64,000 nt of DNA, from NCBI GenBank assembly GCA_014872815.1, contig WKFK01000006.1, forward strand, positions 1 through 64,000. The letters run 5' to 3'. This DNA is from Paracoccaceae bacterium. Its GTDB lineage: Bacteria; Pseudomonadota; Alphaproteobacteria; Rhodobacterales; Rhodobacteraceae. Every line of letters begins with the position of its first letter. The stretch's first letter is position 1. The notes beneath the pieces are model-generated. The model was not told the DNA's origin. It saw nothing but the letters and a program-made list of their open reading frames with translations, and did not search any database. This document shows, one piece after another, positions 460 to 24,941 of this stretch. The position numbers and the translations under genes were made by a program.

Positions 460-605
460 GACTGTGCCTGCCCAATGCGCCCACCCCGCCCCGTTTTGGG
501 ATCATCAGCAGGCCTGCTCGTTCTTATATGTGCCAACAATAGACCATGCGTGGCCAAAAATCACGCGCAGAGTTGGCCAGTGAGGAGGATATGCAACAGC
601 CGCCT

Positions 606-1094: not shown

Positions 1095-1183
1095 ACAACC
1101 CTCTTTTCATGGACGGATAAGACCGGCCTGTGATAAACTGCTCGCAAACTACACAATAAAAAACAACGCAAAAAGAGCAGGAT

Positions 1184-1702: not shown

Positions 1703-1722
1703 CCACATCCGTCTCACGGCCC

Positions 1723-5988: not shown

Positions 5989-6497
5989 TTCTCCTGTGCC
6001 CAGGACCCGATGTCCGCATCGGTGCCCGATCCCCCGGCAGCGCCATCCGCCCCGTAGGAAAAGACGTCAAATTCACCATGCACCCCGGGAGAAAGATACT
6101 GGTAGGCTGTCCCCCAAGGGTCAGTGGGGACCCGGTCCATATAGCCACCGGAGGCCCAGTTCTGCGGCACCGGGGTAGAGGTCGGACGGGTGACCAGTGC
6201 CGCCAGTCCCTGTTCCGTGGTCGGATAGCGGAAATTGTCGAGCTTATAGAGTTTTATCGCGCTGGAAATCGCGGCAATGTCAGATTGGGCCCGCGCCGCG
6301 CGCGCCTGATCGGGGCGGTCAATGACCCGCGGCACCACCACCAGCGCCAGGATTGACAGGATCACCACAACCACCATCAGTTCCAGAAGCGAAAACCCCG
6401 CATCCTTGCGGTCTTCTTCTGGTATGTCCGTCACGTTTTCTGTCGGAATATCCTGCAAGGTCATCCCCTGCCCCTGTGTCACACCACGCATTGCCAC
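5985..6497 (-). CDS. gspG: Major pseudopilin GspG
   Basis: A 170-residue major subunit of the T2SS pseudopilus. The core DAGFSLLELMVVVVILSIL is close to the family consensus, with cleavage after Gly34 and glutamate at +5. It continues with the conserved DNFRYPTTEQGLAALV and PWGTAYQYLSPG stretches and an acidic end of the kind that binds calcium in GspG. The leader is long for the family. An internal ATG at 6464, or another Met near the start, may be the real initiation point. It is the first gene of the GHIJKLM run and faces gspO across 140 bp that must hold divergent promoters. Confidence 0.92.
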   Translation of the reverse strand: MAMRGVTQGQGMTLQDIPTENVTDIPEEDRKDAGFSLLELMVVVVILSILALVVVPRVIDRPDQARAARAQSDIAAISSAIKLYKLDNFRYPTTEQGLAALVTRPTSTPVPQNWASGGYMDRVPTDPWGTAYQYLSPGVHGEFDVFSYGADGAAGGSGTDADIGSWAQEK

Positions 6498-6637: not shown

Positions 6638-7384
6638 ATGACGTCCTTTTCACAAGACCAACTGCTGATCCTTCTGCTCAGCCCAGCCATCGGCTCGTTT
6701 ATCGGCCTCTTGGCGGACCGCTTGCCCAGAGGGGAACCGATTGCCCTGACCCGCTCTGCCTGCCGCAGCTGCGCCAGGCCACTGGCGCCCCGCGATCTGA
6801 TGCCGGTGCTATCGTTTCTGATCACACGCGGCCGCTGCCGGCACTGTGGCGCAACCCTGCCCGGCTGGTTGCTCTATACGGAACTTGCCGCCATCGGCCT
6901 GGCCGTCTGGGCGGTGATGGTGGCGGAGGTGATCCCGGCCCCGCTGATTGCCACCGCGCTGTGGTTGCTGCTGGCCCTCTGCCTTTGCGATCTGCTCTGG
7001 CTGCGCCTGCCGGACCTGTTGACCGGCGCGCTGGCGCTGTTCGCCCTGGGGTTGTCCTGGGCAGGATACGGCCCGTCCCTGATGCTGGCTCTGATTGGCA
7101 TGGTCTGTGGCGCAGGCAGCTTTTGGGGCATCCGCCTGATCTACCGTCATCTGCGCGGGCGTGAGGGGCTGGGGCTCGGGGATGTGAAACTCATGGCCGG
7201 CCTTGGCGCCCTCATCGGCCCCTTTGATCTGCCGCTTGTGGTGCTGATCGCCGCCGCCAGCCTGCTGGCGGTGGCTGTAAGCCGGGCCCTCACAGGCACC
7301 ACCCCTCTGACCGCCCGACAGCCCCTGCCCTTTGGCGCCGCTCTGGCCGCCGCCGGGGGGCTTTTTTATGTGCTCTCCCTGTGA
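6638..7384 (+). CDS. gspO: Prepilin peptidase / leader peptidase GspO
   Basis: A 248-residue bifunctional aspartic protease and N-methyltransferase that processes the pseudopilin leaders of GspG-K. Two CxxC pairs (residues 42/45 and 67/70) form the zinc-binding loop of the family. The catalytic aspartates are Asp118 (LCDLLWLRLPD) and Asp182 in the GLGLGDVKLMAG motif. About eight hydrophobic segments give the polytopic inner-membrane topology. It is divergent from gspG, and having it on the plasmid means the T2SS does not need a chromosomal peptidase. Length and motifs are complete. Confidence 0.94.
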   Translation: MTSFSQDQLLILLLSPAIGSFIGLLADRLPRGEPIALTRSACRSCARPLAPRDLMPVLSFLITRGRCRHCGATLPGWLLYTELAAIGLAVWAVMVAEVIPAPLIATALWLLLALCLCDLLWLRLPDLLTGALALFALGLSWAGYGPSLMLALIGMVCGAGSFWGIRLIYRHLRGREGLGLGDVKLMAGLGALIGPFDLPLVVLIAAASLLAVAVSRALTGTTPLTARQPLPFGAALAAAGGLFYVLSL

Positions 7385-7462: not shown

Positions 7463-9073
7463 GTGAAACCTGCCTTTTTTCTCCCCATTTTACTTGCCAC
7501 CCTGCTCTCGAGCCCTCTCAGCGCCCAATCAGAGCACCCCAGCGACGCCGTCGCCCGCCCCGACATGGCAGAAATCGAACAGGCCTGGCAGCGCGGGGAT
7601 TACATCTTTGTGCGCAAAGGGCTCATGCAACACGCTGAGGACACCGGCACGGCGCTGGCGCAGTTCCGGTATGGCCGGGTGCTTCTGGAAGGCCGGGGCG
7701 GACCGCGTGACGTAGACGCGGCCATCACCTGGCTGCAAAAGGCCGCTGATCAAAACCATGTCGAGGCCATGACCTTACTGGCACGGGTGTATCTCAGCGA
7801 GGGCTTCACAGATCAGGACGCCCCGCCTGAGGCCACCCGCGATCCGGACGTGGCGGTCAAACTGCTCAAACGCGCCGCGCCGTTGGGGGGCAAAGACGCA
7901 CAATATTACCTCGGCCAGCTCTCTCTGGCAGGTAGCGGGATGGCACAAGACCCGGAGGCCGCCTTTACGTGGTTTCTGGCCGCCGCGCGACAGGATCATG
8001 TCGCCGCACAATATGAGCTCAGCCGGATGTATTCTCGCGGCATTGGTACGGTGCCAAACGCTCAAGAAGCCCTGCATTGGTTGACGCAGGCGGCGGAGAA
8101 CGGCCATGTGCGAGCGCAGTATTTCCGCGCCCGCGCTCTGGAAACAGGCAACGGTATTGCGCAAAACATCCCTCAGGCCGCCGAATGGTACCGCCGCGCC
8201 GCCGAAGGCGGGCTGCCCATTGCACAACGCGATCTGGGTCGGCTCTACTTGGCGGGCACCGGCGTGCCGCAAAACACCGAGGAAGGGCTGCGCTGGCTGC
8301 AAGCTGCGGCCAAAGCCGGCGACAGCGGCGCCATGTCCAATCTGGGCCGCGCCTATGCCATCGGGGAAGGCGTGGCACAGGACGATACCAAAGCCGCCGA
8401 ATGGTACGGGCGCGCCGTGCAATTCGGGCTCGGGCGCGCCATGATTGCGCTGGCCGCGCTGCATGAGACCGGGCGCGGCGTGGCACAGGACATGGATCAG
8501 GCGGTGGCGCTGTATCGCAAGGCCCTGGAGACCGTGGACGGTCGTCGTGCCGCCATCCGGCTTGGACAATTGGCCGCCGAAGGCGCACTGGACGGCCGGG
8601 TCGCACCGCAAACCGCCACGCCTTGGGCGCTGGTCGCGGCCAGTGAGGGAGACACCGCCGCCATGGGCTGGCTGGAAACGCAGGCCGCCGAAGGCGCCCG
8701 CGCCGCCCAAGCCGGGCTGGCCGAAATTTATCTGGGTGCGGACAGTCAGACTGAAAAAGGCGCGGCCTTTCTGGCGCAGGCCGCCCAAAATGGCGATGCG
8801 GCCGCCCAGCTACGGCTGGGGCAGATGCACATGACCGGTGACCATGTGGCGCTGGATTATGTCGCCGCACACAAATGGTTCAACATCGCCGCCACCCTGG
8901 GCCGAAGCGAGGCCCGGGAGTTACGCGCGACCGCTGGGGCCCTGATGACCCCCGACCAACTGGCCGAGGCGCAGGCCGCTGCCCGCCAATGGTTTGCCTC
9001 AGAAGAGCCCCAAGCGCCGCAGACCCGCCAAACCATCCGCGCCCTCCCTGCCGATGAGACCCGCAGCGAATGA
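7463..9073 (+). CDS. Exported Sel1-repeat protein, larger copy
   Basis: A 536-residue protein with an N-terminal signal peptide (about residues 1-21, ending PLSAQ) and about ten Sel1-like repeats of roughly 36 residues. The repeats show the spacing A-x-x-x-LG-x-x-Y-x-x-G-x-GV-x-x-D-x-x-x-A-x-x-W. The start is a GTG, with the signal peptide starting immediately. Sel1 repeats are alpha-solenoid scaffolds for protein-protein contacts, often in envelope complexes. It lies 78 bp after gspO and overlaps the next Sel1 gene by 4 bp, so the two form an operon. A role in assembly or surveillance of the secretion system is inferred only from location. Confidence 0.85.
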   Translation: MKPAFFLPILLATLLSSPLSAQSEHPSDAVARPDMAEIEQAWQRGDYIFVRKGLMQHAEDTGTALAQFRYGRVLLEGRGGPRDVDAAITWLQKAADQNHVEAMTLLARVYLSEGFTDQDAPPEATRDPDVAVKLLKRAAPLGGKDAQYYLGQLSLAGSGMAQDPEAAFTWFLAAARQDHVAAQYELSRMYSRGIGTVPNAQEALHWLTQAAENGHVRAQYFRARALETGNGIAQNIPQAAEWYRRAAEGGLPIAQRDLGRLYLAGTGVPQNTEEGLRWLQAAAKAGDSGAMSNLGRAYAIGEGVAQDDTKAAEWYGRAVQFGLGRAMIALAALHETGRGVAQDMDQAVALYRKALETVDGRRAAIRLGQLAAEGALDGRVAPQTATPWALVAASEGDTAAMGWLETQAAEGARAAQAGLAEIYLGADSQTEKGAAFLAQAAQNGDAAAQLRLGQMHMTGDHVALDYVAAHKWFNIAATLGRSEARELRATAGALMTPDQLAEAQAAARQWFASEEPQAPQTRQTIRALPADETRSE

Positions 9074-10236
9074 AACACCTTCTCTCTCTCTGCAGCGCTC
9101 TCTTTCTGGTGGCAGCCCCTGCTGGGGCACAAACAGACCCTGATCCAGCCCAACTTATCGCCCAAGCCGAGGCCGGCAATGTCACCGCGCAAACCGATCT
9201 GGCCTTCCTCTACCATGAGGGGGGCGCCGTGCTGCAAAACTTCGCCACCGCTGCTGCCTGGGCACAAAAGGCGGCGGAGGCCGGCGATGCCCGCGCGCAA
9301 AACCTGCTCGGACAGTATTTCCACACCGGCCTAGGCGGCATGCAAGACGCGGCGCAGGCCCGCCACTGGCTCCAGGCGGCGGCCAACACCGGCGCACCGC
9401 AATTCCTGTTTGATTACGCCACCGTGCTGGAACAGAGCCCACCCCATCTGGAAGAAGCCGTGGCCACCTATCAACGCGCGGTGGACGCGGGCCACCTGGA
9501 GGCCGCTGTGAGCCTGGGCGTCCTCTATCAGGAAGGCCGCGGCGTGGCGGTGGATTACGACCAGGCGCGCGCCCTCTATGAAAGCGCCGCCACACAAAAC
9601 CACGCCCGCGCCCTCAATAATTTGGGCCTGCTTTATGTGCGCGGTCATGGGGTGGATCAGGATTATGAAAAAGCCGCCGCGCTGTTTGCGGCCGCTGCCG
9701 ATCAGGGGCTGGATCAAGCCCTGACCAATCTCGGCGTGATGTATGAAAACGGCTTTGGCGTAGCCCTGGACGAAGAGCGGGCCGCGACACTCTATCGACA
9801 GGGCGGACAGGCGGCCAAGGCCCCAGCCCTGCACTATGATGACCGGCTGGCCCCGCCCGTGACCGACCCGGCTGGCCGCGCGGCCCTGCGCCGCGCTGCC
9901 GACGCCGGAGATCCGGTCGCAGGCTTTCAACTCGCCTGGCTGCTGGCCGAGGACCCGGCCAGCGATGCCGCAGATCTGTCGCGCGCCGCGCGCCTGTTTT
10001 ATGCCGCCGCCCAAAATGGGCATGCCACCTCGATGGTCAATCTCGCACTGCTCTATTTTGAGGGCCGCGGCGTGCCTCAGGATTACGCCCTGGGACAGAT
10101 GTGGCTGATCCTCGCCGGGGCGGCGCAACACCCCGACGCCCCAACCCTCAGCCGCCAATTTGCCGCCCGGCTTACCCCCGGGCAGATGGCCGACGCCCAG
10201 CAGATGGCCCAGCACCAGCAAAGCGCGCGCCGCTGA
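9070..10236 (+). CDS. Exported Sel1-repeat protein, smaller copy
   Basis: A 388-residue protein with a signal peptide at residues 1-20 (ending AGAQ) and about eight Sel1-like repeats, including LGVLYQEGRGVAVDYDQARA and LGLLYVRGHGVDQDYEKA. Its ATG overlaps the stop of the preceding Sel1 gene (ATGA), so the pair is co-translated and probably arose by duplication and divergence. It would be periplasmic. The last repeat has the degenerate terminal pattern MWLILAGAAQHP also seen in the partner (KWFNIAATLG). The specific function is unknown; scaffold function is known for the family. Confidence 0.84.
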   Translation: MKHLLSLCSALFLVAAPAGAQTDPDPAQLIAQAEAGNVTAQTDLAFLYHEGGAVLQNFATAAAWAQKAAEAGDARAQNLLGQYFHTGLGGMQDAAQARHWLQAAANTGAPQFLFDYATVLEQSPPHLEEAVATYQRAVDAGHLEAAVSLGVLYQEGRGVAVDYDQARALYESAATQNHARALNNLGLLYVRGHGVDQDYEKAAALFAAAADQGLDQALTNLGVMYENGFGVALDEERAATLYRQGGQAAKAPALHYDDRLAPPVTDPAGRAALRRAADAGDPVAGFQLAWLLAEDPASDAADLSRAARLFYAAAQNGHATSMVNLALLYFEGRGVPQDYALGQMWLILAGAAQHPDAPTLSRQFAARLTPGQMADAQQMAQHQQSARR

Positions 10237-10403: not shown

Positions 10404-10820
10404 TTGACTCGTATGAGATTGGCAGCATTGAGTATACTTCTCGCGGTCAGCACGGCCACAGGCGCCGCAGCCGCAGAACCGGTGGAGCAGCACAACTCAA
10501 ACGCCTTCTGGTTTGAAAACTGGCGTGACCTCAGCAACGCCACGCTGATAGTCGCCTCCCCCAATGGTCAGATCACCGAAGTTTTTGCGGCCTCTGGGAC
10601 ACCCGTCTTTCAGCTTTCTGGAGAACGCGTTGTCGACGGCGTCTACCGTTACGAACTCAGCGCCGCCACCAATGAGCAGACCACTATCGTCAACCCCGTC
10701 GACAATGGCCGGGGCGACAACCAGCGCGACACCCGCGCCAAGCCGTTTTACACCGCAGGATATTTCACCGTATCCCGCGGCGTGATCATCACCCCAGAAG
10801 AGATCAGCGAAGACAACTGA
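10404..10820 (+). CDS. Small exported protein of unknown function
   Basis: About 138 residues. The first 23 form a signal peptide (LAALSILLAVSTATGAAAA). The mature part of about 115 residues looks beta-rich and contains NAFWFENWRDLSNATLIVASP and a phosphate-loop-free C-terminal half. I recognise no family. A GGGGAG ribosome-binding site sits 7 bp before a TTG at 10404, so that is the preferred start; an ATG follows at 10413. It lies 58 bp ahead of the tail-fibre-like gene and probably shares its transcript. A periplasmic or surface partner of that protein is a guess from location. Confidence 0.68.
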   Translation: MTRMRLAALSILLAVSTATGAAAAEPVEQHNSNAFWFENWRDLSNATLIVASPNGQITEVFAASGTPVFQLSGERVVDGVYRYELSAATNEQTTIVNPVDNGRGDNQRDTRAKPFYTAGYFTVSRGVIITPEEISEDN

Positions 10821-10878: not shown

Positions 10879-11985
10879 ATGGCACTTTCCCCGACCCGCC
10901 TGCTTCTCGCCAGCGCCTGCTTCACGGCCTTGGCCTTTGGCACGGCCCACGCAGATCAAGTCATTCTGGACGATCTGATCGTCGATGGCTCTGCTTGTAT
11001 TGGCTTTGACTGTGTGAATGGCGAAAGCTTTGGCTTTGACACCATCCGCATCAAGGAAAACAACCTGCGCATCAAAGCTCAGGACACCTCCAGTTCGGCC
11101 TCCTTCCCGAGCAATGACTGGCAAATCACCTTCAACGAAACCTCCAATGGCGGCGCCAACAAATTCTCGATTGACGACATCGATGGCGGCCGCACACCGT
11201 TTACCATCGAAGCCGGCGCGCCAAGCCATTCACTCTATGTCGATGATGGCGGCCGCATTGGTCTGGGCACCTCGACCCCAACCGTAGAGGTGCACGTCAA
11301 AGACGGCGACAGCCCCACCCTGCGCCTGGAACAGGACGGCTCTTCAGGCTTCTCCACCCAGACTTGGGATCTGGCGGGCAACGAGACCAACTTCTTCGTG
11401 CGCGATGTGAGCAATGGCTCGCTCCTGCCGTTCAGGATCATTCCAAGCGCACCCACCAACTCGCTTTATGTCGCTGCGGATGGGGATATTGGTATGGGAA
11501 CGGCAAATCCGTCAAACCAACTGCACATCCAGCGCAGCTCGGGCAATGTCGGCATCTTTTTGGAATCCCTCGCCAGCAACGATCAGGTCCGCCTGTCTCT
11601 GAACGAAGGCAGCGACGAATTTCGCATTGTCTTCCCCCAAGGCGGCGGTCAGGTCTTTGATCTAACCGACACAGGGGATCTCACCATCACCGGTGGTTTG
11701 GTGACCGGCACTGCCGGATCCTGTAATGTGGGAACGCCCTGCGATGCGGTCTTTGACCCAGAGGTTTATACCATACCGTCGATCGAGGATCATGCAGCGC
11801 AAATGTGGGCCAACAAACACCTGCCTGCAGTCGGGCCTACGCTCCCCGGTCAACCCGTCGACATGACGAAAAAGGTTCTCACAATGCTTAATGAGTTGGA
11901 GCATGCTCATATCTACATCGAGCAGCTTCATACCCGCTTGAGCGCGTTGGAAGCGCTGTCTGAGGAACCATCCATCGTCCAATAA
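10879..11985 (+). CDS. Exported tail-fibre-like surface protein with chaperone-like C-terminal region
   Basis: A 368-residue protein with a signal peptide at residues 1-25 (ending AHAD) and a good ribosome-binding site (AAGGAG). The middle is beta-rich with repeats IGLGTSTPTVEVHV and IGMGTANPSNQLHI. This GIGT-x-x-P-x-x-x-LHV pattern is known from phage tail fibres and bacterial surface proteins. The C-terminal 80 residues contain YTIPSIEDHAAQMW, NKHLPAVGP and MLNELEHAHIYIEQLH, and resemble the region around trimeric tail-spike intramolecular chaperones. It probably forms an elongated trimeric adhesin. Export through the nearby T2SS is possible but inferred. A DUF2793 protein at 41.2-42.3 kb carries the same GIGT pattern. 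Confidence 0.75.
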   Translation: MALSPTRLLLASACFTALAFGTAHADQVILDDLIVDGSACIGFDCVNGESFGFDTIRIKENNLRIKAQDTSSSASFPSNDWQITFNETSNGGANKFSIDDIDGGRTPFTIEAGAPSHSLYVDDGGRIGLGTSTPTVEVHVKDGDSPTLRLEQDGSSGFSTQTWDLAGNETNFFVRDVSNGSLLPFRIIPSAPTNSLYVAADGDIGMGTANPSNQLHIQRSSGNVGIFLESLASNDQVRLSLNEGSDEFRIVFPQGGGQVFDLTDTGDLTITGGLVTGTAGSCNVGTPCDAVFDPEVYTIPSIEDHAAQMWANKHLPAVGPTLPGQPVDMTKKVLTMLNELEHAHIYIEQLHTRLSALEALSEEPSIVQ

Positions 11986-12755: not shown

Positions 12756-13403
12756 ATGGCAATCATCAGCTTCCGACATAACTTCATATTTTTCAAAACC
12801 ACAAAAACGGCAGGAACCAGTATTGAGGTCGATCTGAGCAGGCATGTCGAAGACTCTGCGATTGTTACGCCGATCACGCCACCTCTGCAAAATCACCAGC
12901 CGCGCAACTACCTCGATACAGACGGTCAGCTACGCTTTTACAATCACATGCCCGCGAGCAAAATCTGCCACCTGATCGGTCGGCACCGCTTTGACAACAT
13001 GTTCAAATTTTGCGTCGAGCGGGAACCTGTCGCAAAATGCATCAGCCATTTTCACATGTATGCCAATTCCGATCTTCACAATCAAAATGGGAAGTTTCCC
13101 ACATCATGGGATGAATATTGCGAAATCGGGCGTTTTCCGATTGATCTCGCTAGATACACTGAGCAACGCAATGGCAGGCCGGAACTGATGGTAAATCGTA
13201 TCATAAGGTACGAGCACCTGGCCGAAGAATTACCCACAGTCCTAGCGCCCCTTGGCATCCCTGATTTTGCGCTTATTAGCCGTGCAAAATCAGAATACTC
13301 TCGCCAGGTTAGGATCACGCCAGAGAAGGTCACATCGCGCCAACGCGATATCATATACGAAGCATTCAGCGAAACACTCAGCGTCACCAAAATGTCTTGG
13401 TAA
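12756..13403 (+). CDS. Sulfotransferase-family protein (2)
   Basis: A 215-residue sulfotransferase-like protein. The nucleotide loop reads FFKTTKTAGTSIEVDL at residues 12-27, with Lys in the expected position. The second motif is FKFCVEREPVAKCISHFHMY near residue 85. It follows the previous sulfotransferase by 59 bp in the same direction. The loop is of the KTTKTAGTSIE subtype, common in marine alphaproteobacterial sulfotransferases near polysaccharide genes. The acceptor cannot be read from the sequence. Confidence 0.8.
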   Translation: MAIISFRHNFIFFKTTKTAGTSIEVDLSRHVEDSAIVTPITPPLQNHQPRNYLDTDGQLRFYNHMPASKICHLIGRHRFDNMFKFCVEREPVAKCISHFHMYANSDLHNQNGKFPTSWDEYCEIGRFPIDLARYTEQRNGRPELMVNRIIRYEHLAEELPTVLAPLGIPDFALISRAKSEYSRQVRITPEKVTSRQRDIIYEAFSETLSVTKMSW

Positions 13404-13519
13404 GTGAGGGTGACGGTGGCCCACGCGCCCCTCACCAGCAATTCAATTCGTACTTTCAACGATCCAATGCGGATATCCGCGGGCGGCCACACGGGACATA
13501 CGGCAAAAGGCAAAATATC

Positions 13520-14230
13520 ATGCGCACATACGATCCGGACCAGCCCCTGATCTTTATCCATGTCCCCAAAACCGCAGGTCAATCCGTGTATACCATTTTT
13601 CATTCTTGGTTTCCGGACACGATACACAGGCACTATTACAGCAGCACATTGAACCGCCCGCCATCGCGCCTCGACCTGCGTCAACCATCCGGCTCAAACC
13701 CGCCCCTAATCTTTGGGCATTTCAACCGAGACCGCGGCTTCGGCATAGAGCAATATTACCCTGAAGTTTCCCAATTCGTCTCGATTTTGCGCGACCCTTT
13801 CGAGATGCACCTGTCCCGATATTTCTATGTCCGTAGATGGTCTGCGGAACGGCGCCGAAATTCAGATATCCAGGACCGTAGCCTGACGGATCACCTCCAA
13901 AATTCCGAACTCAAAATGCTTGTACATTTTCCACGCGAAGTGACCCGAGACAATTACCGCGACATCATCGAAGAATTCTTTGTTGATATTGGCTGTGTCG
14001 AAACCCTGGGGCCATCCCTGAAGCGGATCGGACAACGGCTGGGAAAGCCAGTAGAAAAAATGCGATTGCCCAAAAAAAATGTGACCCCGCGCGATCTCCC
14101 TATTCCTGACGGGGCCTATGACGATTTCCGCACCCGCTGGCCTTTGGAGTTTGACATCTATGACTACGTCCGAAGCCTCTCCCCCGCATCGCACGAGACC
14201 ACAAAGCCCAGCCAAGTGTTTGAGGGCTGA
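13520..14230 (+). CDS. Sulfotransferase-family protein (3)
   Basis: A 236-residue sulfotransferase-like protein starting at the ATG at 13520, which is preceded by AAAAGG; a longer frame opens at 13397 but its first 41 residues look non-coding. Motifs are FIHVPKTAGQSVYTIF at residues 11-26 and FVSILRDPFEMHLSRYFYV near residues 85-105, the PAPS 5' and 3' phosphate-binding elements. It ends 75 bp before the permease-propeller fusion gene. As the third of three unlike sulfotransferases it suggests sulfation at several positions rather than gene amplification, since the three share little beyond motifs. Confidence 0.8.
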   Translation: MRTYDPDQPLIFIHVPKTAGQSVYTIFHSWFPDTIHRHYYSSTLNRPPSRLDLRQPSGSNPPLIFGHFNRDRGFGIEQYYPEVSQFVSILRDPFEMHLSRYFYVRRWSAERRRNSDIQDRSLTDHLQNSELKMLVHFPREVTRDNYRDIIEEFFVDIGCVETLGPSLKRIGQRLGKPVEKMRLPKKNVTPRDLPIPDGAYDDFRTRWPLEFDIYDYVRSLSPASHETTKPSQVFEG

Positions 14231-14305: not shown

Positions 14306-17300
14306 ATGACCCTCATCGCACAGCGATATGAAAAACGCTTCCTCCTCTCCGCGCTGATCATCGTGGTGCTGGCCACTCTGTTCTGGACCGGTTCACGGTA
14401 TCCGGCGCTGGATGAAAAGGCGATGATGTCAGGCGCCATTCAGCTTGAGGACAGCCTGTCCTTTGAGGCCAAATTCCCGCTCACCGAGGAGATGGGCTTT
14501 GCTGAAAAAGTCTTCTGGTCAACGCTCAACTGGATCAACACCAACAAGAAGGGCATGACCTTTGGTGTGCTCTTTGCAGCCGCCTTCCTGACGGCCGCCG
14601 CCTACCTCAAACAGCGCAGTTTCAAAGGCGGCTTTGCCAATGCCGCGCTTGGCATGGCGATCGGCACGCCCCTGGGGGTCTGTGTGAACTGCGCCGCGCC
14701 GATTGCGCGCGGCATGTATGCGGCGGGCATGCGCGCGGAAACCACGCTCTCGGCCATGATTGCCTCGCCCACGCTCAACATCATTGTGTTGACCATGCTG
14801 GTCTCACTGATGCCGCTCTATATGGTGGTGATCAAAATTGGCCTGTCGCTAATGATGATCCTCATCATTGTGCCACTGATCTGCCGCGCGTTGCCGGAGA
14901 CGGAAGTTGCGCCGGAAGTGCCCGCGCCCCAGCCGTGGGGCGCCGAAGAGCTGGGCCACAGGGCACAGGCCGAGCCGCTGCTGAGCGCCGTTGTGGCCGT
15001 GCTCCAAAGCTACGCCAAAAATCTCTGGTTCATCATCAAGATGACCGTGCCGCTGATGCTGCTGGCCGGATTTTTGGGTGCACTGGTGGCCACGGCACTG
15101 CCCCAGGACCTGATCCTGGGCCTGCCCTGGTCGGTCTGGGCGCTGCTCGCCATCGCGGTGGTGGGCACCTTCCTGCCCGTCCCCATTGCCTTTGATGTGG
15201 TGATGGCCGGGGCGCTCTTGGGGCTGGGTCTGGCGCATGGCTATGTCATGGCGCTTTTGTTCACGTTGGGCACGTTTAGTGTCTATTCTTTCCTGATTGT
15301 CGCCGGCACGTTGAGCCTGCGCGCGGGCTGGATGATGGCAGTGTCTGTCATGATACTGGGCGCGATTGGCGGCTGGGGTGCAGAACGCTATCACCAGTGG
15401 CAAAGCGACCGGGCGCTGGAACTCCTGCTCTCCGGTCCCGTCACCTCCGCGCCCCTCGCCCCGCTCTGGGGCGCGGCACAAGCGGCCACACCCGAAAATC
15501 TCACCGTGACAGCCACCCCTCTGCTCCCGCCTTCCCCGCCCTCGGCCCTGCCGTTCACCCAGCAAGAAGCCAGCCAGATTGGCCTCGACAAACCACTGGA
15601 ATTTGGCATGCGCGATATGTGGCCGCCGTTCTGGGAAGGCCGCTCGCTGAGTGCCGGAGACATCGACCGGGACGGGGATCTGGATCTCGCCATCGCCTCC
15701 ACCGAAGTCGGCCTCTATCTTTATGACAACGACGGTAGCGGGCAGTTCACGCGCCGCGCCTTAATCGCCCCCCTGCCCAGTCCGCACATTTTCAACGCCG
15801 CGCTGGTGGATATGGACAATGACGGCTGGTCCGATCTGATCCTGGCCACCTATTTGGACGGCCTTTGGTATTGGCGCAATATACAGGGCAACTTTGGGGC
15901 AGAGCCCCCCCAGCGACTGCCCAACCGTCCCGACGCGCCGTTGGCCATGGCGCTGAGTTTTGCCGATGCGGATCGCAATGGGTATCTCGACATCGCAGTG
16001 GGCAATTGGGCCGCAGGCTGGTACCGCCGCATCCCCGGCGAAGAAAGCCGCAACCGCATCCTGTGGACGGATGCCGGGACGCCCGGCGCGCGCCAGACGG
16101 ACCTGCCTGGCATTCCGGGCGAAACACTCTCACTGCTGTTTAGTGACATTGACCACAACGGCACCGCCGATCTGCTGGTGGGCAACGACTTTGACATCCC
16201 CGATTACATCTATCTCGGCGATGGCGCGGGAGGCTTTGCCATGCTCGATCACGCCAGCGGTGCCCTTCCGCACACCACCACGACCACCATGGCGCTCAAG
16301 ACCGGCGATCTGACCGGTGACGGGCGCGCCGAGCTCTATTTTGCTCAGATCGCAGGGCGCTCTTCCGGTGTCTCAGAGACGCTCAAGATGCAGGATCTGG
16401 CGCTTTACTGTGACGCCATTGAGGATCCGCAGGCCAAAGCCACCTGTCAGCGCAACATGGCAATCAAACGCTGGTACCGCGCTGGCAACAATTTTGATCC
16501 GACCTATGCCAGTCGCTGTCAGGAGATGACCGGGCAAGATCAGGCCGAATGCAAAGCCATGCTGGTCAAAGATCTGGCAATTCAGCGCGAAGACGCCAAA
16601 ATTTGCGCCCTGATCCCGGCCACCCAACCGGTGCCGCGCGCCTATTGTGATCTGCATTTTTGGCCCACACGCCAGCCTTCGGCTGAGGAAATCGCCCTGA
16701 CCCACCCCCAGATCCTGCGCTCAAACGTGCTGCTGGCGCGTAGTGACACCGCCGCGCTCTCCTATGCGGATGAGGCCGAGGTGCGCGGTCTGGATGTGGG
16801 CGGCTGGAGCTGGGACACCAAACTGCGCGATGTGGACCTGGATGGCGATCTGGACGTCTACATCGTCAACGGCACCTGGGTGCCCAATGAGGTCTCCCCC
16901 TCCAATCTGTTTTTCCTCAACGACGGCAGCGGACAGTTCACCGAAGCCTCCGGCCCGTTTGGGCTGGAAGATTATTTGATGACCGCGTCGGCGATTGCCG
17001 CCGATCTGGATGGAGACGGCGATGAGGACTTTGTCACCCACCCGGTGAACGGCCCGCTCATGATGTTTCACAACAATGCCCAAGCCAATCGGCTGGTGGT
17101 CGAGCTGGAGGATACGCGCGGCAACCGCGCCGGGATTGGCGCCACCTTGGTGCTGACCACAACGGATGGGCGCAAATTGCAGCGGGAGTTGCAACTCGGC
17201 GGGGGGTTCATGTCCTTTGATGCGCCCACCATCACCTTTGGCCTAGGCGCCGAGACCACTGCAGGGCCGCTGGCCATCCGTTGGGCCGATGGAGAAGACA

Positions 17301-17356
17301 TAACGCTGACGGGTCCTTTTGAAGCCGGGAAACGCTATAAAATCATACGACACTGA
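14306..17356 (+). CDS. Fusion of an ArsP/DUF318-type permease with FG-GAP repeats and an ASPIC/UnbV domain
   Basis: A 1016-residue protein in one uninterrupted frame. Residues 1-365 are a polytopic permease with about eight helices. Its pattern PLGVCVNCAAPIARGMYAAG (Cys126, Cys129) followed by SPTLNIIVLTML, and a second half with PVPIAFDVVMAGALLG, resembles the DUF318/ArsP permease repeat. After a linker, residues about 430-920 hold FG-GAP/VCBS-type calcium loops (DIDRDGDLDLAIAS, DMDNDGWSDLILAT, DIDHNGTADLLVGN, DVDLDGDLDVYIVN, DLDGDGDEDFVTHP). A cysteine-rich helical insertion sits at about 690-800. Residues 925-1016 match an ASPIC/UnbV module. The propeller would face the periplasm or outside. 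Substrate and function are unknown; the gene sits between sulfotransferase genes. Confidence 0.82.
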   Translation: MTLIAQRYEKRFLLSALIIVVLATLFWTGSRYPALDEKAMMSGAIQLEDSLSFEAKFPLTEEMGFAEKVFWSTLNWINTNKKGMTFGVLFAAAFLTAAAYLKQRSFKGGFANAALGMAIGTPLGVCVNCAAPIARGMYAAGMRAETTLSAMIASPTLNIIVLTMLVSLMPLYMVVIKIGLSLMMILIIVPLICRALPETEVAPEVPAPQPWGAEELGHRAQAEPLLSAVVAVLQSYAKNLWFIIKMTVPLMLLAGFLGALVATALPQDLILGLPWSVWALLAIAVVGTFLPVPIAFDVVMAGALLGLGLAHGYVMALLFTLGTFSVYSFLIVAGTLSLRAGWMMAVSVMILGAIGGWGAERYHQWQSDRALELLLSGPVTSAPLAPLWGAAQAATPENLTVTATPLLPPSPPSALPFTQQEASQIGLDKPLEFGMRDMWPPFWEGRSLSAGDIDRDGDLDLAIASTEVGLYLYDNDGSGQFTRRALIAPLPSPHIFNAALVDMDNDGWSDLILATYLDGLWYWRNIQGNFGAEPPQRLPNRPDAPLAMALSFADADRNGYLDIAVGNWAAGWYRRIPGEESRNRILWTDAGTPGARQTDLPGIPGETLSLLFSDIDHNGTADLLVGNDFDIPDYIYLGDGAGGFAMLDHASGALPHTTTTTMALKTGDLTGDGRAELYFAQIAGRSSGVSETLKMQDLALYCDAIEDPQAKATCQRNMAIKRWYRAGNNFDPTYASRCQEMTGQDQAECKAMLVKDLAIQREDAKICALIPATQPVPRAYCDLHFWPTRQPSAEEIALTHPQILRSNVLLARSDTAALSYADEAEVRGLDVGGWSWDTKLRDVDLDGDLDVYIVNGTWVPNEVSPSNLFFLNDGSGQFTEASGPFGLEDYLMTASAIAADLDGDGDEDFVTHPVNGPLMMFHNNAQANRLVVELEDTRGNRAGIGATLVLTTTDGRKLQRELQLGGGFMSFDAPTITFGLGAETTAGPLAIRWADGEDITLTGPFEAGKRYKIIRH

Positions 17357-17467: not shown

Positions 17468-18586
17468 ATGAAAGTCATTTTATACATCGGCCATCACAAA
17501 GTTGGCTCTACTGCTCTGCAACAATTTCTTGCTCAGAACAGTTTTCGTCTTTTGGAAAACGGTATTCTGTACCCGGCCACCGAAAGCGAAGGCCTCAGCT
17601 ATATGATCGCCAAAGCCACCGCCGGGCGGGATTTTGACGCCCCCCTGTCCATCAACATCCGCGAGCCACACAATGCCTTGGCGTTTCGCTTGATGGCACA
17701 GCTGGACAACCACAGGATGCCACCCTTTCACAAGGCCATTCCCGGGCCGCAACAAATCAAGGCCATTCTGAAAAACCAATTTGCGATCCTGTCACCACAC
17801 ACCGTCTTGATCTGCTCCGAAGTGCTGGCAAATTTTGGCGCCGTGGACCCCAAACTGATCGACCAGCTTCTGGAGATGTTTGGCGATGTTGACCTTGAAA
17901 TTTACTGCGCGTTGCGCCGACCGGATGATTATATCGCCTCCTGGCATGGGCAACGGTTAAAGTTTGGCCACAAGCTGAACCGGCTCAGCGAAAATGGCCT
18001 CGATGGCTATTTCAACTCCATCCATTTCAACTATCAAAAATTGCTGGAACCCTGGATCGAACGCTGCCCAAAGGCGCGGATACATCTGCGGAACTATACT
18101 GGCATTCTGCAGGCGGGCGGCTCAACGGCAGATTTCATGGCCACCTTTGACATTGGCTGGCCTGACAACATGATCCCGGCCGGACGGGCCAACCCGTCTC
18201 TCCCGGTCCCCCTGCGCGACATCGCCCGGCGCGGCAATCATGAGTTGTCCGCAGATCAGGCTCAGGACTTGCGCCATTTTCTGATGTCACACCGCGGGCA
18301 ACTCGACCTGCCGCCGGATCAGGACATCGAACTTTTTGGCGTTGAAAACCGCCAGCGCATGTATGATCGCTTCCAGCCACAGGAAGCCTTTCTGAGAGAC
18401 GTCGCCGGCACCAAAGCCTTTTTCCCACATCTGGACGAAATGCTGATTCCGCGCCCGATGCCTGAAGCTGTGGCCGTCATGGACGCCCTCAAACAGGTCA
18501 TCCCATTGAGCCACACGGCCTCGGAGCTGCCCCCTGCCATCCCCGCCTTCCTGGACGGGCTGACAGCCCAATATACGGGCCACTAA
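17468..18586 (+). CDS. Sulfotransferase-family protein (4), next to galactofuranosyltransferase
   Basis: A 372-residue P-loop protein. The phosphate loop is IGHHKVGSTALQQFL at residues 8-22, and the second motif is LEIYCALRRPDDYIASWHGQ near residues 138-157, where the Arg-Arg-Pro stretch fits the 3'-phosphate site. It is longer than the three small sulfotransferases upstream and is closest in plan to the one at 20416-21546. It is followed after 3 bp by the GlfT2-like gene, so the pair is co-transcribed, which suggests that it sulfates the galactofuranose-containing product. That acceptor is inference. Confidence 0.75.
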   Translation: MKVILYIGHHKVGSTALQQFLAQNSFRLLENGILYPATESEGLSYMIAKATAGRDFDAPLSINIREPHNALAFRLMAQLDNHRMPPFHKAIPGPQQIKAILKNQFAILSPHTVLICSEVLANFGAVDPKLIDQLLEMFGDVDLEIYCALRRPDDYIASWHGQRLKFGHKLNRLSENGLDGYFNSIHFNYQKLLEPWIERCPKARIHLRNYTGILQAGGSTADFMATFDIGWPDNMIPAGRANPSLPVPLRDIARRGNHELSADQAQDLRHFLMSHRGQLDLPPDQDIELFGVENRQRMYDRFQPQEAFLRDVAGTKAFFPHLDEMLIPRPMPEAVAVMDALKQVIPLSHTASELPPAIPAFLDGLTAQYTGH

Positions 18587-18589
18587 GCC

Positions 18590-20413
18590 ATGGAGCGCTC
18601 CCAGCCCCTGATCCCATTACAGTCTCTGTTATGGCCCGATCCGGCGCTGTGTGATGACCCGGAGCTCTATGCCCGCCGCGCGGGTGACACCGCTTTTGCC
18701 CCGCCCACAGACAGCCCGGCCCTGCGGTTCGGCCCCGGTGGACAGGCCCAGTTTGACACCTATGGCAACATCTTCAACATGGGCAAATGGCAGCGCCACT
18801 GCGCCCTGACCCACCTGGCCTTGCGGCTCACCGGCCATGGGCACATCACCCTGCACATCATCCGCCTGCGCCCGGATACCGTGGGCAGTGTCGAAGACAC
18901 CTTGTTTCAGGGCCCTGTGGATCTGTCTGAAACACCCTGCATCGAGATCAGCCCACCGGACGGGTTTGGCCCCGATGATCTGATGTATTTTGCCGTCACA
19001 GCGGACAGCAAAGGCGCGCTGAGCGGTGCAGAATGGTGCAGCGCCCAAGCACCGCGCCGCACGCCTGAAATGATGCTGGCGATCACCACGTTTAAACGCG
19101 AGGCCGCCGTACAGGCCACCGTGGCCCGGTTTGAGGCCTTCATGGCCACCTCCCAGATTGCCGCGCATCTGCATCTGGTCGTGGTGGACAACGGCCAGAC
19201 CGCCCAGATTACCCCCTCGCCCCATGTCACCCCGATCGCCAATGAAAACCTCGGCGGCTCCGGCGGCTTTGCCCGAGGTCTGCTGGAGGCCAAGGCCCGC
19301 GGTGCCAGCCATTGCCTGTTCATGGATGATGACGCCTCCGTCCATATGCCCGCGCTGGAACGCACCTGGGCGTTTCTGGCTTATACCACCGATGACAGCC
19401 TCGCCATTGCCGGGGCGCTGGCCAATGCCGATGAAAGCTGGCGCCTGTGGGAAAACGGCGCGGTGTTTGACCGCTCCTGCCGCCCCGCCCACATCGGCAT
19501 GGATCTGCGGCACGCGGGCGAAGTCCGCCGCCTGGAATGGGACAGCGCCGGCCCCAAACCGCACAATTTTTATGGCGGCTGGTGGTATTTTGCCTTTCCC
19601 GTGGCCGCCACCACCCATATGCCGTTCCCCTTCTTTGTGCGGGGCGATGACATCAGTTTCAGCCTGGTGCATGACTTCACCATCGTCACCCTGCCCGGGG
19701 TGATCTGCTTTCAGGACCAGAATTTCGCCGACAAGGAATCGCTGCAGACGCTTTATCTCGACCTGCGCAGCCATCTGGCCCACCATATGGCGATCCCACA
19801 TATGGACATTGGCAGACGGGCCACCTTGCGCATTGCCATGTGGTTCTTTGCCCGCAGCCTGTTTCAGTGCCACTATGACACGTTGGCAGCGCTCAATCTG
19901 TCTTTCGACGATTTCATGAAGGGTCCTGATTTTTTTGAAAAAAATGCAGATATGGCAGATCGGCGTGCCACCATCGCCACCCTGCGTCATAGCGAAATCT
20001 GGCAGCTGTCCAATGCCCCCGTGCCCGCAGAGAAGCGCTGGATCAACCCAGATCACCCCTGGGCTCTTAAGTTGATGATTTTTACGCTCAACGGCCATCT
20101 GATCCCGTTTTTTGGCCTGTTTGGCAACCGCGTGGTGCTGGAAGCTGGGCAGCGCGGACAGCTGCACCAAATCTGGGGCGCTTCGGACATCACCTATCTG
20201 GACCGCGATGCCGGCACACGCTTCACGCTGCGCCACTCCAAATGGCGCGCCGCCCGTCAAATGCTGCGCTTCCTGCGCCTGTCCTGGCAGTTCTGGCGCC
20301 GCTATGACAGGCTCAAACGCCAGTGGCAGGCAGAGTATCCCGACCTGACCAGCACCGCCTTTTGGGCCCACCGCATGGGGCTGGATGACACGCCCCACAA
20401 AATCGAGAGCTAA
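18590..20413 (+). CDS. GlfT2-like galactofuranosyltransferase (GT2)
   Basis: A 607-residue glycosyltransferase with the domain plan of mycobacterial GlfT2: an N-terminal beta-sandwich (about residues 1-150), a GT-A catalytic domain (about 160-400) and a helical C-terminal part. Motifs are ANENLGGSGGFARGL near 220, MDDDAS at 245-250 for metal and UDP binding, GWWYFAFP near 327, and RGDDISFSL at 351-359 with the likely catalytic acids. GlfT2 builds a galactofuranose polymer from UDP-Galf. The glf gene that makes UDP-Galf converges 1.2 kb downstream, and sulfotransferase genes flank this one with 2-3 bp gaps. Donor assignment is well supported; linkage and acceptor are unknown. Confidence 0.82.
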   Translation: MERSQPLIPLQSLLWPDPALCDDPELYARRAGDTAFAPPTDSPALRFGPGGQAQFDTYGNIFNMGKWQRHCALTHLALRLTGHGHITLHIIRLRPDTVGSVEDTLFQGPVDLSETPCIEISPPDGFGPDDLMYFAVTADSKGALSGAEWCSAQAPRRTPEMMLAITTFKREAAVQATVARFEAFMATSQIAAHLHLVVVDNGQTAQITPSPHVTPIANENLGGSGGFARGLLEAKARGASHCLFMDDDASVHMPALERTWAFLAYTTDDSLAIAGALANADESWRLWENGAVFDRSCRPAHIGMDLRHAGEVRRLEWDSAGPKPHNFYGGWWYFAFPVAATTHMPFPFFVRGDDISFSLVHDFTIVTLPGVICFQDQNFADKESLQTLYLDLRSHLAHHMAIPHMDIGRRATLRIAMWFFARSLFQCHYDTLAALNLSFDDFMKGPDFFEKNADMADRRATIATLRHSEIWQLSNAPVPAEKRWINPDHPWALKLMIFTLNGHLIPFFGLFGNRVVLEAGQRGQLHQIWGASDITYLDRDAGTRFTLRHSKWRAARQMLRFLRLSWQFWRRYDRLKRQWQAEYPDLTSTAFWAHRMGLDDTPHKIES

Positions 20414-20415
20414 AA

Positions 20416-21546
20416 ATGTTCTGGAAAACGCGCAAACCTGCTCCAACCTCCCCCGCCGCGCCGCCTGCTGCCCGCGCGGGAAAGCTGATCGTACATATCG
20501 GGGACCGCAAAACCGGCTCGACCTCCATCCAAAACGCTCTGGCGGCCAATCGGGTGCACCCGGACGGCGCCAGCCTGCTGTATCCTTCCCGCCTGGCCCA
20601 GAACCATCTGCTGCAATCCTTTGGCCAGCAGGGCGCCGGGAAACATGCCGAAAACTTCGTGCAAATTGCCGCGCGCATCGCAGAAGCGGGGGCCGATTTT
20701 TCAATCCTGTCCTCCGAAGGGCTGGAAGACATGCCCCCGGAGAAGGTCCACGCGGTGCTGCAAACCCATTTCCGCCCCGTCGTCACACAGGTGCAGGTGT
20801 TGGCCTATGTCCGACCGCATATCGGTCGGATCACCTCCAGCTGTGCTGAACAGCTGAAGATTGGCCTTTTTGCCGGGGACAGCATCGACGCCTTTTTTGA
20901 GCGCGCCCTGTCCAACGGACGGTTCTTCTATGCCCCGCGCTTCACCAGCTGGCACGACACGTTTGGCACAGAATTCACCCTGCGCCCGATGATCCGCACC
21001 GAGTTGCACAACGCCTCGGTGGTCGAGGACTTCCTGCATGTGGCCCTCAACGGCACCCCTTTCCGTCTGGACCACGGCACATCGGACAATGAATCCTTGA
21101 ACCTGAGGGATCTGATGATCCTCAAGCTGGTCCACAGCTGTGGCCGCAAACGGGGGCTGCATCAGAAAATCGGTCTGGGCTGGTCCATTGCCCGCCACCT
21201 AAACCAACGCACAACCGGCACCGACAGAGCCGCGCCGCCGGAACGGCTGCGCACCCACAAGGCGCTGGCGGTGCGCATTGCCGACACCTACCGCGCAGAC
21301 GCCCAGGCCGTAGATCAAGCCTTCTTTGAGGGACGTCCCCTGCTGCAGACGGCGTTGGACCAGATGATCGACAGCGCACCCGAAACCGCCCAGAGCCTCG
21401 ATCCAGCAGATCATTTCAGCGACAGTGAACAGCGCAGCATTCTGGCGCTGGCGGACACCATTTCCGAAATGATGGACAACACCAAGGGCGCGCCCTGGCC
21501 CAAACACTTCCGGGATGGGCGCATCAAGGCCCTACAAAACGGCTGA
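20416..21546 (+). CDS. Sulfotransferase-family protein (5)
   Basis: A 376-residue protein with a proline/alanine-rich start, then VHIGDRKTGSTSIQNALAAN at about residues 30-49, the 5'-phosphosulfate loop, and VQVLAYVRPHIGRITSSCAE near residues 124-143. It follows the GlfT2-like gene after 2 bp and is the last gene of the sulfotransferase-GlfT2-sulfotransferase operon, converging on glf with a 17-bp gap. It resembles the 17468-18586 protein in length and plan, so the two may act on different positions of the same galactofuranose-containing glycan. Confidence 0.75.
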   Translation: MFWKTRKPAPTSPAAPPAARAGKLIVHIGDRKTGSTSIQNALAANRVHPDGASLLYPSRLAQNHLLQSFGQQGAGKHAENFVQIAARIAEAGADFSILSSEGLEDMPPEKVHAVLQTHFRPVVTQVQVLAYVRPHIGRITSSCAEQLKIGLFAGDSIDAFFERALSNGRFFYAPRFTSWHDTFGTEFTLRPMIRTELHNASVVEDFLHVALNGTPFRLDHGTSDNESLNLRDLMILKLVHSCGRKRGLHQKIGLGWSIARHLNQRTTGTDRAAPPERLRTHKALAVRIADTYRADAQAVDQAFFEGRPLLQTALDQMIDSAPETAQSLDPADHFSDSEQRSILALADTISEMMDNTKGAPWPKHFRDGRIKALQNG

Positions 21547-21563
21547 TCCGGCCGGCCGCCGTG

Positions 21564-22811
<1,248 letters not shown>

Positions 22812-22943
22812 CTAAAAATACACCTTCTCTCTAGCCCTACACTACCCAATGGAGCTAAGGTTACCCCCGACGCTCAGGGTGGACATGGGCGCACGTATAA
22901 CACTGATACATTGAGCGCCCATTTGGGGGTGAAGAGACCTACT

Positions 22944-24941
22944 ATGAAAATGACTTTTGACTTTAATAAGACCAGCGCCATCATGCAGGCTGATATCCTG
23001 GAAGGCGGCGACGCCCCGGCCAGCACCGCAACCCCGTATAGCGTGGACATCGGAGATACATTTTATGGCACCATCGAGACCGAATATGCCCATGACTGGG
23101 TCGCGGTCGATCTGGTGGCAGGCGAAGACTATGTGTTCTGGGTGCGCGGCATCAACGGCGTCTATAACGGGCTTTATGACACCACACTCGCCGTACATAA
23201 CAGCGCCGGCACCCAAGTGGCCTTCAATGACGACCTGTTTTACGAAGACAGCATCTATTTCTCGCTGATCGAGTTCACCGCAGGGTCCACAGGCACCTAC
23301 TATCTGAACATCGGCGGTTATGAAGATGCGAGCGGGGGCGTCACAGGCGATTATGCCCTGGAAGTCTCCACATCAACCTTCACCACCGAAGAGGTCGCCA
23401 CGTTCCTGACCGAATATTCCTGGGGCTATCCCAGCCCGCTCCGGTTTGACGTCAGCCCCGGTGACACGCTGACCTACAGCATTGCACGCCTCACCCCTGA
23501 AGGCCGCCAGCTGGCAGAATGGGCCTTGGAAACCTGGAGCATCGCGCTTGGCATCAATTTCCAGATCGTCAATGCCTACAGCGCGGACATCATGTTTGAC
23601 GACAGTGAACCCGGCGCCTTTGCCGGGCCCAATGACATCAATCTGGCCACCGGGATCAATGGCAGCTCCTCCGTCAATGTCTCCACCGACTGGCTGGACA
23701 CCTATGGCACCACCATCGACAGCTACTCCTTCCAGACCTACCTGCATGAGATCGGCCACGCCTTGGGGCTCGGCCATGCCGGCCCTTATGATGGCAGCGC
23801 CACCTTTGGGGACGACAATGTCTATCTCAACGACAGCGTCATGATGACGTTGATGAGCTATTTCCAGGTCAGCGAGAACCCAAATATCGACGGCGATGAT
23901 GTCTTCCTGACCTCCCTCATGCCGGCCGACCTTGTGGCGATCCAGATGCTTTATGGTCCGGCCGAGGTCTATGGCGGCGACACGGTCTGGGGCGCAAACT
24001 CCAACGTTGGCGGCTGGCTGGAGGAGCTGTTTGATGAGCTGTTCCATGGGGTCGACAGCGCGATCTATGCCGGGGGCGAGATCGGCTTCACCATTTATGA
24101 TACCGGCGGCACCGACACGTTTGATCTGAGCACGGTCACAACCGCCCTCGACATCTCACTCACCCCCGGCTCGGTTCTCAGCTTCGGCGGGCTGGAAAAC
24201 AATGTGATCATTGACAGCGGTGCTGTGATTGAAAACCTCATTGGTGGCAGCGCCGATGATATGCTGTCGGGCAATGACGCCCTCAACCAGATTATCGGCG
24301 GCGCAGGCAACGACACAATCATCGGCTTCAACGGAGCAGACACTCTGCTGGGCGGGGAGGGGAACGATTCCATCCGCGGTGGCGCCAAGGGAGATTTGGT
24401 CGAAGGTCAGACCGGCGATGATCTGCTGTTTGGCGGCTTTGGCGATGACACGCTGTCGGGCGCACAGGGGCGCGACAAGCTGCGGGGCCATGATGGCGAT
24501 GATGACCTGCTGGGCGGCAACAAAATCGACACGCTGATTGGCGGAGACGGGGAAGATTACCTGTCAGGCGGCACCGGCAACGACCGTCTCAACGGCGGCG
24601 GTGACAATGACACATTGGTGGGCGGAGACGGCGACGACCGCTTGCTGGGCCATGCCGGCGACGACCTGCTGACCGGCGGGCTGGGGGCGGACCGGTTCCG
24701 CTTCCTGATCAAGGACGGCGAAATCGGCGATGACACCATCACCGACTTTGAACTGGGCATCGACAACCTGCGCCTGGATGAAGATCTCTGGGGCGGCGGC
24801 CTGACACGGTCCGACGTGGTCACCCAATTTGCCAGCGTCATCGATGGCGATGTGGTGTTTGATTTTGGCGATGGGGATCGGATCACGCTGGAAGGCCTCA
24901 CCAGCACCGCCGGGTTGGTGGATGACATCAGTCTGATCTGA
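22944..24941 (+). CDS. Serralysin-type (M10) metalloprotease with RTX repeats
   Basis: A 665-residue secreted zinc protease. The ATG at 22944 is preferred; the frame is open back to 22797, but that extension looks non-coding. A pre-peptidase-like beta domain comes first (about residues 25-140, with FYGTIETEYAHDWVAVDL). The catalytic domain follows with HEIGHALGLGH at 268-278 and a Met-turn (LMSYF) about 40 residues later. Glycine/aspartate nonapeptide repeats GGxGxDxUx lie at about 430-590, and a C-terminal ITDFELGIDNL region follows. No Sec signal peptide is seen, which fits type I secretion of RTX proteases, but no type I transporter is present in the window. It likely degrades extracellular proteins. 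Confidence 0.9.
   Translation: MKMTFDFNKTSAIMQADILEGGDAPASTATPYSVDIGDTFYGTIETEYAHDWVAVDLVAGEDYVFWVRGINGVYNGLYDTTLAVHNSAGTQVAFNDDLFYEDSIYFSLIEFTAGSTGTYYLNIGGYEDASGGVTGDYALEVSTSTFTTEEVATFLTEYSWGYPSPLRFDVSPGDTLTYSIARLTPEGRQLAEWALETWSIALGINFQIVNAYSADIMFDDSEPGAFAGPNDINLATGINGSSSVNVSTDWLDTYGTTIDSYSFQTYLHEIGHALGLGHAGPYDGSATFGDDNVYLNDSVMMTLMSYFQVSENPNIDGDDVFLTSLMPADLVAIQMLYGPAEVYGGDTVWGANSNVGGWLEELFDELFHGVDSAIYAGGEIGFTIYDTGGTDTFDLSTVTTALDISLTPGSVLSFGGLENNVIIDSGAVIENLIGGSADDMLSGNDALNQIIGGAGNDTIIGFNGADTLLGGEGNDSIRGGAKGDLVEGQTGDDLLFGGFGDDTLSGAQGRDKLRGHDGDDDLLGGNKIDTLIGGDGEDYLSGGTGNDRLNGGGDNDTLVGGDGDDRLLGHAGDDLLTGGLGADRFRFLIKDGEIGDDTITDFELGIDNLRLDEDLWGGGLTRSDVVTQFASVIDGDVVFDFGDGDRITLEGLTSTAGLVDDISLI

Follow-up and report, generated by a model that had tools for sequence, protein, structure and literature searches.

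A conserved permease–propeller fusion protein tied to an export locus in Rhodobacterales

Why should a membrane permease be joined, in a single polypeptide, to a β-propeller of the FG-GAP type? The question is raised by a gene in a 64,000-nucleotide stretch of DNA from a Paracoccaceae bacterium (assembly GCA_014872815.1, contig WKFK01000006.1, positions 1 to 64,000; hereafter the window). An uninterrupted ATG-to-stop frame at 14306..17356, on the forward strand like all the domains described below, encodes a protein of 1016 residues, which combines known domains in an undescribed, conserved arrangement tied to an export locus. The fusion is probably an unstudied helper of the export of fibre-like surface proteins in the marine bacteria that carry it.

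Architecture and conservation of the fusion

The permease domain (residues 1–374, 14306..15427) matches Pfam ArsP_1 over residues 113–351 (56.2 bits, above the gathering score of 32.3) and has an N-terminal extension of the form SRYPxLxxKAxMxG...LEDxLSFE. It is followed by a linker of variable length (residues 375–411, 15428..15538) which contains an Ala-x-Ala block (AAQAA at 390–394), then by a seven-bladed β-propeller predicted from the structural model and motifs to resemble CRTAC1 (cartilage acidic protein 1; residues 412–928, 15539..17089), and by a UnbV_ASPIC domain (residues 943–1003, 17132..17314). The Pfam matches to FG-GAP_3 (five stretches), FG-GAP (three stretches) and UnbV_ASPIC all exceed the curated cut-offs; both features of the CRTAC1/UnbV_ASPIC family, an FG-GAP propeller and the UnbV_ASPIC domain, are present. 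The AlphaFold2 model of the full-length protein (45 sequences, mean pLDDT 82.2, pTM 0.67) begins with a domain made of helices, which is followed by a linker of low confidence (376–397), an all-beta propeller broken by helices at 708–796 and a beta C-terminal domain.

The propeller has seven Asp-rich loops, which begin at residues 452, 502, 554, 614, 668, 842 and 900, and their motif suggests that they are of the calcium type. The helical insertion (about residues 698–790, 16397..16675) contains six cysteines (702, 714, 738, 749, 767 and 781), all invariant in an alignment of 45 relatives, and disulfides in the propeller are probable. A preliminary description of the window had announced the permease, the Asp-rich loops, the cysteine-rich insertion and the ASPIC/UnbV end in one chain, and all of these were recovered.

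The same description was less accurate about the permease, for which it had counted about eight membrane helices and a repeated CVNC motif. CVNC occurs once (residues 126–129, 14681..14692), at a break between helices in the model, and it is present in 71 of 71 aligned permeases, while the matching place in the second half of the domain reads LPVPIAFD. In a model of the permease alone (71 sequences, pLDDT 89.2, pTM 0.88), there are five long helices and, in each half, two broken-helix pairs, which is read as seven spans plus two re-entrant hairpins in all; nine spans would be the alternative. Since the number of spans is odd in both cases, an N-terminus located inside would place the C-terminus outside. 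The propeller is indeed most likely extracytoplasmic, as had been supposed, because relatives made of the propeller alone start with stretches which look, by eye, like signal peptides.

At least 120 relatives, the query included, combine PF03773, PF13517 and PF07593; this is the case of all those listed, out of 1473 proteins with E below 1e-3, and the 45 aligned sequences were chosen among these 120. The fusion is therefore not a one-off, with at least 119 other fused relatives among the matches listed. The comparison with a copy 80% identical (L046) gives an overall dN/dS of 0.14; taken separately, the permease has 0.12, the propeller 0.15 and a set of 26 linker codons 0.20. These values, obtained by the NG86 method, are rough, dS being close to 1 or above, and they indicate purifying selection on both domains. 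The possibility of a frameshift or assembly error near residues 370–430, which the preliminary description had raised, was checked and no frameshift was found there: the aligned relatives run continuously through this region.

Distribution and the export locus

Among 292 Rhodobacterales genomes, 23 have a match at E ≤ 1e-30: 18 encode a full-length fusion (61–100% identity), one a fusion at 34% identity (G150), three the propeller only (G155, G274 and G267) and one a C-terminal fragment (G218). It is very probable that the fusion belongs to an export locus in this order. The 26 genome loci that were compared include the three propeller-only copies, the C-terminal fragment and G150, and at least one neighbour of a core set is found in 21 of them, in a gene order conserved with a type II secretion locus. 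The most frequent neighbours encode a tail-fibre-like protein (20 loci), a small protein (19), two Sel1-repeat proteins (18 and 18) and a prepilin peptidase (15), followed by gspG (12), DUF2793 proteins (9) and the N-terminus of a giant Ig-repeat protein (3).

The co-occurrence is tight. The small protein is encoded in 21 of the 292 genomes, all inside the 23 that have the propeller family, and the fibre protein also in 21, of which 20 are inside this group, the extra and weaker match being in G219, while G143, G150 and G218 have no fibre match. The hypergeometric probabilities of such overlaps are 5e-30 for the small protein and 9e-27 for the fibre, relatedness being uncorrected in both figures.

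In the window, the gsp genes of the type II system come first, then the prepilin peptidase, two Sel1 genes, the genes of the small and fibre-like proteins, sulfotransferase-like genes and the fusion. The gsp genes lie on the reverse strand. gspM (1723–2229), gspL (2226–3404), gspK (3481–4464), gspJ (4461–5159) and gspG (5985–6497) were assigned by Pfam or by likeness to loci with annotated gsp genes, gspC (606–1094) matches T2SSC at 21.6 bits, below the cut-off of 27, gspI (5135–5527) is also below its cut-off (T2SSI), and gspH (5497–5988) shows only the N_methyl motif in Pfam. On the forward strand are the A24 prepilin peptidase (6638..7384), the Sel1-repeat proteins of 536 residues (7463..9073) and 388 residues (9070..10236), the small protein (138 residues, 10404..10820) and the fibre-like protein (368 residues, 10879..11985). 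The small protein, the tight companion of the propeller family, has no Pfam family over cut-off and looks exported by eye. The tail-fibre label of the 368-residue protein comes from weak PHROG matches (E values of 1.5e-6 and 6.1e-6), with no Pfam family over cut-off; its homologue in L016 matches Peptidase_S74 at 36.9 bits. A multiplication of fibre genes is hinted at in G130, G161 and G175, which have 9, 7 and 12 fibre matches respectively, part of these being fragments of a single gene.

The window belongs to a contig of 67,819 bases which encodes RepA (PF10134, 333 bits), ParA and a ParB-like protein just under cut-off. In all likelihood this contig is a circular plasmid of the RepA type, because its ends overlap by 99 bases, RepA is present and a secretin frame crosses the joined ends (window 1–2500 plus the end piece L086). 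The end piece contains the secretin, gspF and, by eye, a gspE-like frame, so that the plasmid most likely carries a near-complete type II system, with gspC weak and gspH and gspI under Pfam cut-offs. In PLSDB, 13 records have a match of any length, which in 8 of them covers at least 80%; the 7 examined among these near-full-length plasmid records are all from Rhodobacterales. On three plasmids that were examined (L018, L019 and L021), the gene next to the fusion encodes a giant Ig-repeat protein, that of L019 (15315–24599, after the fusion) having 3094 residues and nine DUF7933 stretches. The last 300 residues of this L019 protein look by eye like an outer-membrane barrel. About 8% of non-mobile Sulfitobacter plasmids are reported to encode type II secretion (PMC13386836); the term "FG-GAP" is absent from the main text of that paper and of PMC10090131. 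Two further proteins of the window plasmid are likely exported, a large RTX/Ig/cadherin-like protein (60222–63356) and an M10 RTX protein (22797–24941). On plasmid pW43A of Parasedimentitalea marina (L022), the annotation splits the fusion into three pieces and likewise breaks up nearby TPR genes into several short ones, which would fit a decaying locus or a sequence of poor quality.

The preliminary description had placed the fusion among sulfotransferase genes. Steadier partners, which it had missed, are the genes for type II secretion, the Sel1 proteins, the small protein and the fibre, and the proposed link to sulfur or glycan chemistry holds in part: it is recurrent and not constant, the sulfotransferases being a frequent, variable extra. 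In the window, all on the forward strand, the sulfotransferase-like gene at 12064–12696 matches Pfam Sulfotransfer_2 right at the cut-off (22.0 bits), those at 12756–13403 and 13397–14230 were recognized by a P-loop-like motif only, and two more at 17468–18586 and 20416–21546 by motif only, with no Pfam match. Homologues of these five genes occur within about 10 kb in 9 of the 26 loci (L041, L042, L046, L048, L049 and L063–L066), a count made with no genome-wide background, and Pfam sulfotransferases are near the gene in L070, L085, L087 and L103.

The last two window genes flank a GlfT2-like galactofuranosyltransferase gene (18590–20413, forward strand; Glft2_N 26.7 bits against a cut-off of 26.1); within 18590–22793, a UDP-galactopyranose mutase gene (GLF, 265.6 bits) lies close to it on the opposite strand. 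Together, these genes possibly form a pathway for a sulfated galactofuranose polymer. A second hint of sulfur chemistry near the family is a protein with an FGE-sulfatase (formylglycine-generating-enzyme-like) domain encoded beside a Nitrospina copy (L078, 3628–4983).

Outside Rhodobacterales, fused copies come from records under the names Caulobacterales, with two copies in a single genome, Nitrospina, Nitrospirae and Micavibrio; the gene of an Oligoflexales permease is cut off by a contig end. Another alphaproteobacterial family has the fusion in 6 of 79 genomes, the starting genome G709 included, and it is also present in G1026. Among 60 relatives, 28 have a match at E ≤ 1e-3, which amounts to nine full fusions, one partial copy and 18 matches of partial coverage, mostly to the ASPIC-containing end. 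The fusion is rare overall, since only 3 of 385 genomes of a class-wide draw match at E ≤ 1e-30. Stand-alone permeases of about 370–390 residues gave 397 matches, several of those among the 120 listed being named partial; one of them (P0268), used as a query against 398 Pseudomonadota genomes, retrieved 3 matches, all fused copies.

In two genomes (L070 and L071) the halves are separate, divergent genes, encoding permeases of 379 and 378 residues and propellers of 659 and 658 residues. The two genes are about 1.2 kb apart with another gene in between, which in L070 matches an outer-membrane protein family (29.5 bits, cut-off 25.4). In quick, unrooted trees of the permease and of the propeller, this pair falls close to the same groups of fused copies. 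That split halves remain neighbours shows that permease and propeller belong together.

Conversely, no CVNC permease was found elsewhere in the genomes of G155, G274 and G267, where the permease is thus dispensable: the permease search gave a match 27% identical (E 4.7e-4) in G155 and none in the other two. The propeller of G155 is that of Thalassovita gelatinovora. As the Thalassovita propellers fall within the fused copies of Rhodobacterales, and that of G267 groups with the fused copy of MO_188, the propeller-only forms read as products of fission of fused ancestors, the propeller having apparently lost its permease in some lineages; the direction is suggested by quick-mode, unrooted trees with long branches (G150, Micavibrio, Oligoflexales and the second Caulobacterales copy). 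The replacement of the lost permease by CcdA and thioredoxin was considered and rejected as a rule, because the DsbD_TM and thioredoxin genes found beside one Thalassovita propeller (L041) are absent from the list of open reading frames of the second locus (L042). The MauG-like gene recognized by eye next to the propeller of G267 (L038) is a single case.

Proposed role and its alternatives

The best explanation, a tentative one with not quite an even chance, is that the fusion is dedicated, in Rhodobacterales, to a locus for the export of surface fibres and acts there as a maturation helper. The inner-membrane permease would hold the CRTAC1-type propeller in the periplasm, next to the products of the locus: the type II system with its prepilin peptidase, the Sel1 proteins, the small companion and the tail-fibre-like or Ig-repeat proteins. 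Newly exported fibre proteins would dock on the propeller, which would help them to fold or to be modified before they pass through the secretin, while the permease would carry across the inner membrane one small solute required for this step. This solute could be an anion, or a thiol or soft-metal ligand held at CVNC. The assignment of a maturation role to the propeller is possible, if short of even, and the class of the substrate is little better than a guess.

Several observations weigh against this explanation. Neighbourhood is not contact, and no experiment or expression datum on the fusion was found in the literature searched. The relatedness of the genomes enters the co-occurrence figures, and three genomes keep the propeller without the CVNC permease. 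gspG is found in 12 of the 26 stretches covered, and 5 of the 26 loci (L043, L044, L045, L049 and L052) have no conserved neighbour in the stretch covered, although in the genomes of the last two (G157 and G181) a fibre gene lies about 12 kb from the locus on its contig. The divergent copy of G150 has neither the small protein nor the fibre, and no secretion gene was found nearby. Outside Rhodobacterales, where the neighbours to be scanned were hand-picked without a background control, they vary case by case: a Tad-type secretin and ATPase near the Micavibrio copy, yet a few genes away (L088), an autotransporter and an alginate lyase (L100), DUF11 proteins (L102), a Calx-beta/DUF5650 repeat protein in addition to the FGE-sulfatase-domain protein (L078), and Collar-domain proteins (L085 and L087). 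In L085, which belongs to the other alphaproteobacterial family, the fusion lies beside lasso-peptide-like genes (asparagine synthase, PqqD and an ABC exporter, plus a sulfotransferase), and L103 and L104 are similar by eye.

An unlikely alternative is that signal peptidase cuts the propeller off at the Ala-x-Ala block, after which type II export would turn it into a calcium-binding adhesin at the surface or at a pilus-like tip, the permease having a separate job. The linker varies in length and yet has AAxA in 41 of the 45 aligned rows, whereas 500 shuffles of these linkers gave 12.8 rows on average and 22 at most, an excess which makes cleavage slightly likelier and is itself inflated by the relatedness of the rows. 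Similar alanine blocks are seen by eye in the linkers of the MO_188 and G1026 copies, the tree has propeller-only copies inside groups of fused ones at two or more points, and type II genes are close by. On the other hand, there is no clear hydrophobic signal core ahead of the block, plain A-x-A (43 of 45 rows) is little above the shuffled mean of 36.2, P0077 and P0097 have no A-x-A, P0024 and P0098 have no AAxA, and inspection by eye showed no Ala-x-Ala block in the linkers from Caulobacterales, Nitrospina, Nitrospirae or Micavibrio. The AAxA motif may thus be a signal-peptidase site which frees the propeller, or the relic of one.

The propeller could instead sense or catch a ligand outside the cytoplasm and thereby feed or gate a permease that works in uptake, as the preliminary description had proposed, and this is quite unlikely. 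The covalent fusion and the split halves that stay neighbours are compatible with it, but nothing beyond the fusion speaks for sensing, catching or gating as such, the genes that constantly accompany the fusion in Rhodobacterales are those for export and fibres, and the propeller is kept without its CVNC permease in the three genomes mentioned above.

That the fusion is an efflux pump for metals or metalloids, like ArsP or SO_0444, to which the propeller adds an accessory domain in the periplasm, is improbable. The Pfam ArsP_1 match is above cut-off, but those to the NCBIfam models SaoE (27.8 bits) and SO_0444 Cu/Zn efflux (25.5 bits) are far below cut-offs of 325 and 300. The fusion has CVNC instead of the C(S/T)C motif which is reported from a membrane span of all ArsP homologues surveyed in PMC4435449. 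Two ArsP paralogues of the same genome have FCSC and are 14 and 16% identical to the fusion permease. No metal-resistance gene was noticed in the neighbour lists, although no search was aimed at such genes. A metal-resistance pump was rejected on the basis of the weak family scores and the motif mismatch. Finally, an assembly or gene-calling artefact joining two genes, or an error at the junction, is excluded, because all 120 listed relatives are fused and dN/dS is 0.14; fused copies also exist in several other lineages.

Relation to known systems

The databases contain many such proteins, under the names "FG-GAP-like repeat-containing protein" or "YraQ". The architecture had been put forward as a candidate for an undescribed system, and no description of it or of its companions was found among the titles and abstracts listed by the searches; nor was an assigned role found for bacterial CRTAC1 relatives in the literature searched. 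One paper, PMC2668756, contains each of the terms "FG-GAP", "permease" and "Roseobacter" a single time. If the maturation helper proposed above does serve fibre export, a transporter step would be added to type II secretion, a CRTAC1-type fold would be tied to cell-surface assembly and roseobacter plasmids would gain a concrete module for surface export. Genetic tests of the role are feasible, because this branch combines a tight set of partners with a defined partner in the membrane and with forms that are naturally split. It is rather doubtful that the fusion represents a new class of secretion accessory, in which a transporter-linked CRTAC1-type propeller couples the movement of a solute to the periplasmic maturation of tail-fibre-like proteins, with type II or Tad systems, in several lineages.

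No solved relative of the permease was found by sequence search at E ≤ 1 or by Foldseek at E ≤ 0.001. The permease resembles the ArsP_1/UPF0718 (YraQ) permeases in its Pfam match and two-half architecture, and differs from them by CVNC in place of C(S/T)C, by its N-terminal extension and by LPVPIAFD in the second half. The DASS/INDY-type elevator transporters (NaCT, NaDC3, NaS1, VcINDY and Pho90) may also be counted among the closest known systems. The PilY1-type propellers of type IV pili may be similar in that a propeller is tied to pseudopilin-type machinery; PilY1 is not known to have a permease, unlike the fusion. CRTAC1 and the ASPIC/UnbV proteins share with the fusion the FG-GAP propeller and the UnbV_ASPIC domain, but here these stand behind a polytopic permease, the propeller has a six-cysteine helical insertion, and the identity is 18% over the structural alignment.
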